Of a DNA stretch of 56,389 nucleotides, positions 4,952 through 43,023 are shown piece by piece (position 1 is the first letter of the stretch; each line of letters starts with the position of its first letter). Source of the stretch: an uncultured beta proteobacterium. GTDB lineage: Bacteria; Pseudomonadota; Gammaproteobacteria; Burkholderiales; SG8-41. Under the pieces are notes generated by a model. The model saw only the letters and a list, made by a program, of their open reading frames with translations. It was not told the origin of the DNA and did no database searches. A program made the translations under genes and the position numbers. The DNA is taken from assembly GCA_903889565.1 (NCBI GenBank), contig CAISYC010000051.1, forward strand, positions 1 to 56,389, read 5' to 3'.

Positions 4952-4965
4952 TTGACCTAGATCAG
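4952..4965. promoter_or_regulatory. FNR/ANR-like box upstream of the universal stress protein gene
   Basis: TTGACCTAGATCAG matches the FNR consensus TTGAT-N4-ATCAA at eight of ten fixed positions. Its centre is about 78 bases before the uspA-like ATG. Universal stress genes in proteobacteria are often under FNR/ANR control, which supports the reading, but two mismatches make it the weakest of the four boxes in the window. Confidence 0.45.
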
Positions 4966-5036
4966 GAATGTGGCGTTTTCGCGGTGCTAACCTGATCTCA
5001 GGTCATCAGTCACGGATTCGACAAGGAGAAATCATC

Positions 5037-5489
5037 ATGTACAAGAATATTCTGGTTCCGACCGACGGCTCCAAGCTGTCGAACAAGGCGGTGAATGAGG
5101 CGATCAAGCTGGCCAAGGCGTTCGGCGCGAAGATCACCTTCCTCAATGTCGTGCCCGACTACCGCAAGGTGTTGAGCGAGACCTTTGCGGTGCCGGCGGG
5201 GTTGTCCGCGCCGGTGCAGAAAAAATATCAGGGTGAAGCTGCTGCTGCGTCGATGAAAGTGCTCGACGCAGTGACGGAAAGCACCGCCGCCGCCGGCGTT
5301 GAATGCGCCGGCGTATCGTTGGTCAACGAGTCGCCCTACGAGGCGATCATCAAGCAGGCGGCCAAGAGCAAATGCGAAGTGATCGTCATGGCCTCGCACG
5401 GGCGCCGCGGCCTGCAGGGCTTTCTGCTCGGCAGCGAGACGACCAAGGTGCTGGTGCATTCGAAGATTCCGGTTCTCGTGGTGCGCTGA
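5037..5489 (+). CDS. Universal stress protein, UspA family
   Basis: 150 residues, single Usp domain. N-terminal NILVPTDGS carries the first ATP-contact Asp, and the C-terminal MASHGRRGLQGFLLGSET matches the ATP-binding G-x2-G-x9-G-S/T pattern, so nucleotide binding is expected. Role: a cytoplasmic stress or starvation response protein. AAGGAG eight bases upstream fixes the ATG. A weak FNR-like box precedes it. A second Usp gene lies at 35727-36212. Confidence 0.93.
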   Translation: MYKNILVPTDGSKLSNKAVNEAIKLAKAFGAKITFLNVVPDYRKVLSETFAVPAGLSAPVQKKYQGEAAAASMKVLDAVTESTAAAGVECAGVSLVNESPYEAIIKQAAKSKCEVIVMASHGRRGLQGFLLGSETTKVLVHSKIPVLVVR

Positions 5490-5537: not shown

Positions 5538-5551
5538 TTGAGGTGGATCAA
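5538..5551. promoter_or_regulatory. FNR/ANR-like box upstream of the DUF1847-DUF411 unit
   Basis: TTGAGGTGGATCAA has one mismatch to TTGAT-N4-ATCAA. The centre at 5544.5 would put a class II start site near 5586, and CATAGAGT at 5571-5578 is a plausible -10 region. The DUF1847 ATG follows at 5608. Confidence 0.6.
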
Positions 5552-5607: not shown

Positions 5608-6306
5608 ATGAAATACGAGGATCCAGCCTGCGCTTATTGCCCGCCGGAGGTGCGCGCCTGTCGCAACGGCGAAGCCGAGGCGCGCGGCCCCGGCTTCTGT
5701 CCGAGCAGAGTCGACCCGGCCACGCAGGAAGATGCGCACGCGATTTACGGCGAACCCGAAACGCGCAAGATCGCGCGCGAATCGGCGGTCGTCGAGTCCG
5801 CCGGCTATTGCAAATGGACGCGGGTCGAGGAGATCATCGAATTCTCCAAGCGCATGGGCTTCAAAAAAATCGGCATCGCCAACTGCATCAGCTTCGTCGA
5901 TCACGCCTATGTGCTCAGTGGCATCCTTGAGAGCCACGGCTTTGAAGTCGTCTCGGTTGCCTGCAAGAACGGCAACATTCCGAAAGAAGAGGTCGGCGTC
6001 GCCGACAGCGAGAAAATCCGCCCCGGCAATTTCGAGGCACTGTGCAATCCGGTCGCGCAGGCTGAACTGCTGCACGCGCATGGCTGCGAATTCAACGTCG
6101 TGATGGGGCTGTGCATCGGCCACGACAGCCTGTTCTTCAAACACGCCAGGGGTCTGACCACCGTGCTGGTGGCGAAAGACCGCGTGCTGGGTCACAACCC
6201 GGTCGCTGCGCTCAATCTTGCCGACAGCTATTACAGCCGCCTGTGGGGACCGCTCAAGCCCGCCAAGCCACCGAAGCTGCCGGTGGCCGGGCGTCGCGAC
6301 GGTTAG
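5608..6306 (+). CDS. DUF1847 cysteine-rich, probably metal-binding protein
   Basis: 232 residues, cytoplasmic (no signal peptide). The N-terminus has a cysteine cluster (CAYC near residues 8-11, then C18 and C31) suited to zinc or iron-sulfur binding. Further conserved cysteines occur in GIANCISFVDH, SVACKNG and MGLCIGHDS. This pattern is typical of the DUF1847 family, found mainly in anaerobes and facultative anaerobes; its reaction is unknown. It sits behind an FNR-like box and 31 bases before the DUF411 gene, so the two are probably co-transcribed. The last 15 residues are Pro/Lys/Arg-rich and not conserved in appearance. Confidence 0.85.
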   Translation: MKYEDPACAYCPPEVRACRNGEAEARGPGFCPSRVDPATQEDAHAIYGEPETRKIARESAVVESAGYCKWTRVEEIIEFSKRMGFKKIGIANCISFVDHAYVLSGILESHGFEVVSVACKNGNIPKEEVGVADSEKIRPGNFEALCNPVAQAELLHAHGCEFNVVMGLCIGHDSLFFKHARGLTTVLVAKDRVLGHNPVAALNLADSYYSRLWGPLKPAKPPKLPVAGRRDG

Positions 6307-6337: not shown

Positions 6338-6784
6338 ATGCAACGACGCCATTTTTTATCTACCCTGCTGGCGGCACCGATCTTCGCCGCGCGGCCGGCG
6401 TTGGCGGCGCTGCCCGTCGTCACCGTTTACCGAAGTCCGACCTGAGGCTGTTGCGGCGCGTGGATCGATCATCTGCGCGCCAGCGGCTTCCGTGTGAAGC
6501 CCGAGGATGTCAAAGACCCGGAGCGTTATCGCGCGCGTTACGGTATTCCGGATGCGCTCGGTGCCTGCCATACCGGCGTGGTCGACGGCTATGCGATCGA
6601 AGGCCACGTACCGGCGCGCGAGATCAAGCGGTTGCTGGCCGAACGTCCGTCCGCGCGCGGCCTCGCGGTGCCCGGCATGCCACCGGGTTCCCCCGGCATG
6701 GAGGGCGCGCCTGCTGTTCCATACGACGTGCTGCTGGTGCTCGCCGACGGCGGTTACCATATCTACGCGCATTATGCGCGCTGA
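6338..6784 (+). CDS. DUF411 metal-binding protein with in-frame TGA: candidate selenoprotein
   Basis: Reading from the ATG at 6338 with one in-frame TGA (6443-6445) gives 148 residues of an otherwise intact exported DUF411 (COG3019) protein. Residues 1-24 are a signal peptide (MQRRHFLSTLLAAP...). The family motif SPTCGCC appears here as SPT-(TGA)-GCC, so codon 36 is TGA at the first cysteine of the CxCC site. The frame then continues through CHTGVVDGYAIEGHVPA, GLAVPGMPPGSPGME and a normal C-terminus. A hairpin resembling a bacterial SECIS starts nine bases after the TGA. Selenocysteine in a redox/metal-binding motif is the best reading. The alternative is a TGC-to-TGA mutation or sequence error. 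Conventional gene callers would split it at 6445. No sel genes are in this window. Confidence 0.72.
6455..6481 (+). promoter_or_regulatory. SECIS-like mRNA hairpin inside the DUF411 gene
   Basis: Left arm GGCGCGTGGAT (6455-6465) pairs with right arm ATCTGCGCGCC (6471-6481): eleven continuous pairs, two of them G-U, closing a five-base loop CGATC. It begins nine bases after the TGA, and 20 bases separate the TGA from the loop. A G in the first two loop bases and this distance agree with known bacterial SECIS elements. A GC-rich coding sequence can form hairpins by chance, so it is supportive, not proof. Confidence 0.55.
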
Positions 6785-42239: not shown

Positions 42240-42253
42240 TTGATATCGATCAA
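42240..42253. promoter_or_regulatory. Perfect FNR/ANR consensus box
   Basis: TTGATATCGATCAA matches TTGAT-N4-ATCAA exactly. It is 67 bases from the ATG of the OB-fold gene (42313) and on the other side 130 bases from the amidohydrolase start. A class II start site would be near 42288. Confidence 0.7.
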
Positions 42254-42312
42254 GTTTGAGCAGCGGCGCTGCTGTTACGCTGGCAACATTGATCCGGGAG
42301 AGGCTTGCCATC

Positions 42313-43023
42313 ATGAAAATACTTATTGCAATCGGTATGACGCTGGTAACCGCGCTGGCCTGCGCGGTCGACAAGCCCGCGGCGCCGGCGCCGTCGGGCG
42401 AGGTGGTCAAGGGCTCGGTGCTCGAGGTGAAGGATGTCGAGAGCTACACCTATTTACGTCTGAAGACCAAGAACGGAGAAACCTGGGCCGCAGTCGGTAA
42501 AACGCCGGTGCAGCAGGGCAGCGAAGTGACGCTCGAAAACGTGACGGTGATGACCAATTTCGAGAGCAAGACGCTGAAGAAAACCTTTCCGACGATTTTG
42601 TTCGCTAATCTGGCCGGCAAGGGCGCCAATGCGAGCTACGCCGGCAACGAAGTGGCGGCGGCGCACGCCGGTCTGACCAAGTCGGTCGATGCCGGCGACA
42701 TACGCGTCGACAAGGCGAAGGGGGCCAACGCGCGCACGATTGCCGAAATTGTCGGCAAGGCCGCCGAACTGAAAGACAAACCGGTGCTGGTGCGCGGCAA
42801 GGTGGTCAAGTTCAACGCCGAGATCATGGGCAAGAACTGGGTGCACCTGCGCGACGGCAGCGGTTCGGCCGCCGACGGCTCGAACGATCTGCTGGTGACC
42901 ACCGCGGGCACGGCCAAGGTCGGCGATGTGGTGACGGCGCAGGGCGTGGTGCATACCAACGCCGATTTCGGCTCCGGCTATACCTATAAGGTATTGGTCG
43001 AGGAAGCAACGCTGCAGCCTTGA
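42313..43023 (+). CDS. Exported protein with two OB-fold-like (NrfJ-like) domains
   Basis: 236 residues from ATG 42313. Signal peptide to about residue 18. Domain 1 (about 28-118) has GSVLEVKDVESYTYLRLKT, GETWAAVG and FESKTLKKTF, the NrfJ-like block; domain 2 (about 140-236) repeats the fold with VLVRGKVVKFNAEIMGKNWVHLRDGS. These OB-like proteins act in the periplasm in respiratory or stress contexts, exact role unknown. A perfect FNR box lies upstream, so it is probably induced at low oxygen. Confidence 0.84.
   Translation: MKILIAIGMTLVTALACAVDKPAAPAPSGEVVKGSVLEVKDVESYTYLRLKTKNGETWAAVGKTPVQQGSEVTLENVTVMTNFESKTLKKTFPTILFANLAGKGANASYAGNEVAAAHAGLTKSVDAGDIRVDKAKGANARTIAEIVGKAAELKDKPVLVRGKVVKFNAEIMGKNWVHLRDGSGSAADGSNDLLVTTAGTAKVGDVVTAQGVVHTNADFGSGYTYKVLVEEATLQP

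Follow-up and report, generated by a model that had tools for sequence, protein, structure and literature searches.

A probable selenocysteine-containing form of the copper protein CopG (DUF411) in Betaproteobacteria and Chloroflexota

CopG is a periplasmic, thioredoxin-like protein in which a CxCC motif and two methionines hold a tetranuclear copper cluster, and it aids copper resistance in the absence of oxygen, as described in the available portions of two reports (PMC7558416, PMC8456105). CopG of Pseudomonas aeruginosa (6WIS/6WJE), for which the tetranuclear cluster is reported, resembles the protein described here in fold and sequence and shares the CxCC frame and the M-x6-M pair; it begins the motif with Cys, whereas TGA, and thus a putative selenocysteine (Sec), occupies that position here. 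CutG, a CopG relative encoded in the cutFOG multicopper-oxidase operon of Rhodobacter capsulatus, has a C-x-C-C motif and an M120X6M127 pair. It is a Cys form, and the accessible text of that study gives its motifs as dispensable for CutO activity.

Replacement of Cys by Sec is likewise described for copper and metal proteins of families other than DUF411/CopG, namely, the SO_0444 Cu/Zn efflux transporter, the CopZ family, and E1-E2 ATPases, and in Trx, TlpA-type, and GOS_C proteins (UxxC/UGC), whose fold is thioredoxin-like, Sec likewise occupies the nucleophile position (PMC13188914, available text). The present protein differs from the latter three in having UxCC together with a copper-site methionine pair. 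The original prediction knew of no description of DUF411 as a selenoprotein family. DUF411, PF04214, and CopG are missing from the table of a 2026 catalogue that covers 119 families and subfamilies of prokaryotic selenoproteins (PMC13188914), and DUF411 with Sec was not found in the open literature. Among the listed papers that match both selenoprotein and CopG, no title concerns a bacterial copper protein. Thiol proteins with Sec forms are well known; the new elements are the family and the position within a copper cluster.

A DUF411 gene with TGA at the first motif cysteine

The window, i.e., the whole stretch of 56,389 nucleotides that was analyzed, contains the following features of the candidate gene:

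6338..6784, + strand, candidate Sec-CopG gene (DUF411), 148 residues with Sec36, assigned from sequence, Pfam, and nearest structures
6338..6406, + strand, presumed export signal with a Tat-like RRHFL
6443..6445, + strand, TGA codon 36, first position of the CxCC motif
6449..6454, + strand, Cys38 and Cys39, the remaining two motif cysteines
6677..6700, + strand, Met114 to Met121, an M-x6-M pair as in CopG and CutG

The gene had been described as a DUF411 member with one TGA at the first motif cysteine, and the sequence bears this out. With TGA read as U, positions 6338 to 6784 give a single 148-residue protein (...VTVYRSPT-U-GCCGAW...) in which codon 36 is the sole internal stop and the terminal codon is another TGA. 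The Pfam DUF411 model (PF04214) matches at 91.5 bits, against a gathering cutoff of 27, with a match that lies past the TGA, and this is the only match to the profile in the gene's own genome. None of the NCBIfam models matched the protein, and Rfam gave three matches, each far below its gathering score. RRHFL, recognized by eye, is taken here to belong to the export signal. One COG3019 protein of Ochrobactrum is a predicted Tat substrate, according to the available part of its description.

The closest solved protein by sequence is CopG (6WIS/6WJE; E, 1e-29). An AlphaFold2 model with Cys placed at residue 36 (mean pLDDT, 90.5) gave five matches at an E of <0.001 in a structure search of the PDB, all of them CopG, with E values of about 1e-14. 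An alignment of 45 proteins shows no variation at positions 36, 38, 39, 114, and 121 (U counted as C), and the TGA thus stands at the first cysteine of the copper motif. The family is therefore that of CopG, a copper-cluster protein left unnamed in the original prediction, and this changes the probable role of selenium.

TGA at this column is shared by many homologues. DUF411 matches were found in 25 of 60 relatives, with TGA at exactly the same column in 19 same-family loci and Cys in 8 order-level loci. Within the family, 46 of 74 genomes have a match and, judged from the fetched loci, 43 of these 46 carry at least one TGA copy; the exceptions have TGC (G073), a different Cys form (G086), or a broken gene (G026). 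Broken or partial DUF411 copies (L273, L274, and L275) also lie beside intact ones or replace them (G020, G009, and G026), and one genome (G084, L160) carries Sec-CopG and a divergent Cys DUF411 about 10 kb apart, so that Sec and Cys forms can coexist. Scans of the order (144 DUF411 matches in 399 genomes) and of the phylum (192 in 398 genomes) gave Cys in 61 of 61 loci examined outside the family, among the matches listed and with the entries marked as lacking the codon fetched in part. The TGA-bearing entries listed outside the family were all fetched and rejected, since every one that possesses the motif has Cys in the motif column and its TGA is the gene's own terminator or, in L258, lies elsewhere in the frame; no motif was found in L272 (G292).

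Among the matches listed for named genomes (80 of 197 relatives), TGA occurs in at least seven records of Betaproteobacteria/Burkholderiales and at least two of Chloroflexi (L149 and L150), and all others have TGC or TGT at the motif column. In the class of L149, 33 of 249 genomes have a DUF411 match, and the motif is present in 29 of 30 fetched loci, 14 with TGA (including L149's own gene) and 15 with Cys; Chloroflexi and their class hold 15 TGA loci. All fetched loci with the motif comprise 208 distinct loci, of which 60 have TGA, 108 TGC, and 40 TGT, and none has TAA or TAG. The motif finder relied on the last two motif cysteines plus a downstream EGHVP or GMP motif, and L025, L029, L030, L031, L169, L229, L272, L273, and L275 consequently lie outside the 208; by eye, L030 reads TGA and L169 Cys.

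The codons past the TGA are under purifying selection. Across the 68 such codons of 13 close Sec genes, compared in 78 pairs, mean pN is 0.149 and mean pS is 0.497, giving a dN/dS of about 0.21. Sequencing error or a decaying gene could be suspected from the draft state of the genomes and the broken copies in relatives G020 and G026, but the same TGA recurs in dozens of separately assembled genomes (including at least nine named records), and neither this selection nor the retention of TGA in nearly all DUF411-bearing genomes of the family fits such a reading, the probability of which is negligible. The TGA is thus not confined to one strain with decay elsewhere in the gene, the circumstance named in advance as counting against a selenoprotein. 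General reassignment of UGA is ruled out as well: TGA terminates 4 of the 10 window genes inspected, the Sec-CopG gene included, and so is not reassigned throughout.

Selenocysteine machinery and the downstream hairpin

The genome itself encodes the machinery for Sec incorporation, selA, selB, selC, and selD all being present, whereas the absence of selA, selB, or selC had been named in advance as refuting a selenoprotein. On contig C59, selA scores 599 bits and selB 432 bits, and both adjoin the tRNA-Sec gene (selC) with anticodon TCA; selD (L230; 424 bits) is located on contig C64. selD has its own in-frame TGA within GGGUGCK, and SelD is therefore likely a selenoprotein itself, a known kind. 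In the near set, SelB scores above the cutoff in 16 of 17 TGA genomes versus 1 of 7 Cys genomes (Fisher P = 3e-4; the genomes are related, and G026, with its broken DUF411, is excluded). No such separation exists in the Chloroflexota class, where SelB is found in 12 of 14 TGA and 13 of 15 Cys genomes. G008 and G625 have TGA, yet no SelB above the cutoff and no tRNA-Sec were found in them, G611 has TGA and tRNA-Sec without SelB, and G073 has TGC and tRNA-Sec without SelB above the cutoff; several of these four genomes are incomplete.

The first two of these genomes, and a GTG start downstream at 6494, would suit a regulated stop at UGA, which would yield a short N-terminal peptide and leave the remainder to reinitiation or to leaky reading with another amino acid. 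Such a stop is highly improbable, since the residue replaced is an invariant cysteine, the other two stop codons never occur at a column where TGA occurs in 60 loci, SelB accompanies TGA in nearly all TGA genomes of the near set, and a restart at 6494 loses the motif. Decoding of UGA codon 36 as Sec would instead involve the genome's own SelA, SelB, tRNA-Sec, and SelD, with a hairpin directly downstream serving as a putative bacterial SECIS element:

6455..6481, + strand, SECIS-like hairpin of 11 pairs with its loop at 6466 to 6470, assessed by folding, recoding, and covariation

This hairpin is as originally described, with arms at 6455 to 6465 and 6471 to 6481, a five-base loop (CGATC) with G as its second base, and nine bases separating the stem from the TGA; with a lower stem, the structure spans 6444 to 6490. 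Its predicted stability (dG, -28.9 kcal/mol; z, -4.53) was equaled by 0 of 200 dinucleotide shuffles, and when the peptide is recoded synonymously 300 times for comparison, the z score of the window's hairpin (L001) is -2.5. The hairpin lies within published bacterial SECIS limits, as given in the available text (PMC13188914), but these limits are satisfied by 21 of 33 Sec windows and also by 42 of 90 Cys windows and therefore constitute weak, unspecific evidence.

Synonymous recoding is more discriminating. With 300 recodings per peptide, the proteobacterial Sec windows have a mean z of -1.84 (n = 33), compared to -0.03 for Cys windows (n = 90; P = 4e-10, from related and hence dependent sequences). 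The signal resides in the main Sec clade (mean z of -2.12 for 28 windows), and L015, L020, L021, L023, and L028 have no excess of hairpin energy (mean z, -0.29). No such excess over synonymous recodings is seen in the second betaproteobacterial group or in the Chloroflexota class, where z is -0.28 for Sec and 0.08 for Cys (P = 0.20).

Pairing is largely maintained across the 28 main-clade genes, in which 94% of cells pair. Columns 16 and 36 change from G-C to U-G in six genes, and columns 22 and 30 change from A-U to G-C in five. Changes on both sides account for 12 paired cells, compared to 3.1 after shuffling (0 of 500 shuffles as high), whereas the number of pairs with a double change stands out less (46 of 500 shuffles). 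The main-clade loops have G at position 2 in 19 of 28 genes, while 7 of 28 lack G at both position 1 and position 2. The proposal of a SECIS element is thus supported for the window's own clade, where stability and two covarying pairs favor it, but the Cys homologues, the Chloroflexota, and the second betaproteobacterial group provide no such signal.

With the TGA column shared, the sel genes present, and the gene under purifying selection, the candidate selenoprotein is supported, and we are confident in the explanation that the gene encodes a selenocysteine-containing CopG.

Origins of the Sec form and its gene neighborhood

The history of the Sec form was traced on a tree in which 206 entries were reduced by similarity to 183 proteins (55 Sec and 128 Cys), built by a short search that left 84 of 180 inner branches open. 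The Sec/Cys label requires eight changes on this tree, at least three of which are forced by well-supported branches. The main Sec clade comprises 35 Sec proteins and 1 Cys protein (support, 99) and does not include the second betaproteobacterial group, the Chloroflexota group, or L021, which are placed elsewhere. The separate placement of these Sec groups makes repeated gain of Sec in DUF411 probable. A return to Cys is the likely history of L068 (TGC), which is nested beside L012 (TGA); the two proteins are identical at 114 of 121 compared residues.

The gene is preceded in the window by two further features:

5538..5551, + strand, FNR-like box TTGAGGTGGATCAA, with one mismatch, before the DUF1847 gene and with comparable boxes in relatives
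5608..6306, + strand, DUF1847 gene, ending 31 bases before the DUF411 start

DUF1847 and Sec-CopG are probably on the same transcript, and the FNR-like box that had been noted before DUF1847 ends 56 bases short of its start. The window contains 23 FNR-like matches at ≤2 mismatches versus 11.8 expected, so that one such box alone is weak, and there is no strict FNR box directly upstream of the window's Sec-CopG gene. Elsewhere in the window, a perfect FNR-type palindrome, TTGATATCGATCAA, is located at 42240 to 42253, just ahead of an open reading frame (42256 to 43023) whose translation resembles an exported protein, and an FNR-like box with two mismatches (4952 to 4965) is located just ahead of a universal stress protein gene (4968 to 5489), itself upstream of DUF1847.

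Across proteobacterial loci, a strict FNR-type palindrome is found upstream of 15 of 42 Sec genes versus 2 of 121 Cys genes, with a background of 21 in 1,919 stretches; none of the 15 Sec and 15 Cys loci of the Chloroflexota set has one. Thirteen of the 15 Sec loci with the palindrome belong to the window's own branch. These palindromes may be bound by a relative of FNR or CRP, and FNR-type control of Sec-CopG in this branch would presumably mean control by low oxygen, with induction of the protein when oxygen is scarce.

No copper gene was seen beside Sec-CopG in the window. In relatives, CopG genes are found beside genes for cupredoxin, CusF, multicopper oxidase, and CusCBA, a cupredoxin gene preceding CopG in L161 and others. 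The order in L162 is outer membrane efflux protein, multicopper oxidase, Sec-CopG, CusF, and then CusC-, CusB-, and CusA-type proteins. Among proteobacterial loci with 1 kb of sequence on both sides, a cupredoxin or CusF partner was recognized by motif for 19 of 36 Sec genes and 29 of 111 Cys genes.

Proposed role of selenium at the copper site

Sec-CopG would be exported, probably by Tat, and is predicted to fold like CopG. By homology, Cu(I) would be held through Sec36, Cys38, Cys39, Met114, and Met121, and Sec probably acts as a copper ligand, which would bring selenium into contact with copper. Within the UxxC motif, Sec36 would also take the position of the nucleophile. A selenolate would be a softer ligand than a thiolate and more readily re-reduced, and at this position it should tune redox turnover of the copper site or its recovery from oxidation. 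The protein may serve in copper defense or copper delivery under low oxygen.

The same residues could be read differently, with Sec36 taking part in thiol/selenol redox chemistry as a UxxC reductase of disulfides or oxidized copper proteins rather than binding copper. The thioredoxin-like fold, the location of Sec at a helix start with Cys39 three residues on, and the predominance of thioredoxin-fold redox proteins among known selenoproteins (PMC13188914, available text) are in keeping with a reductase. Nevertheless, none of the three motif cysteine positions or the two methionines has been lost, the CxCC motif is the copper site of CopG in the accessible text of the reports on that protein, and copper genes surround CopG in many relatives. 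We consider a selenoprotein of the purely redox kind unlikely, though it deserves some weight. The fullest form of the copper-ligand reading, in which Sec36 bridges a multicopper selenolate cluster in a copper defense protein that is subject to FNR-type regulation in the branch of the window and arose repeatedly from the all-cysteine form, has in our estimation an even chance of being correct.

A Sec-CopG would add to the selenoproteins a family found in two phyla, whose genes will be cut or missed by annotation that stops at UGA. It would also tie selenium use to copper defense and, within the window's branch, to control of the FNR type, presumably by low oxygen. With Sec in place of a residue that, as Cys, is a copper cluster ligand, what selenium does at a copper site becomes testable with matched natural proteins, such as L012 (Sec) and L068 (Cys).
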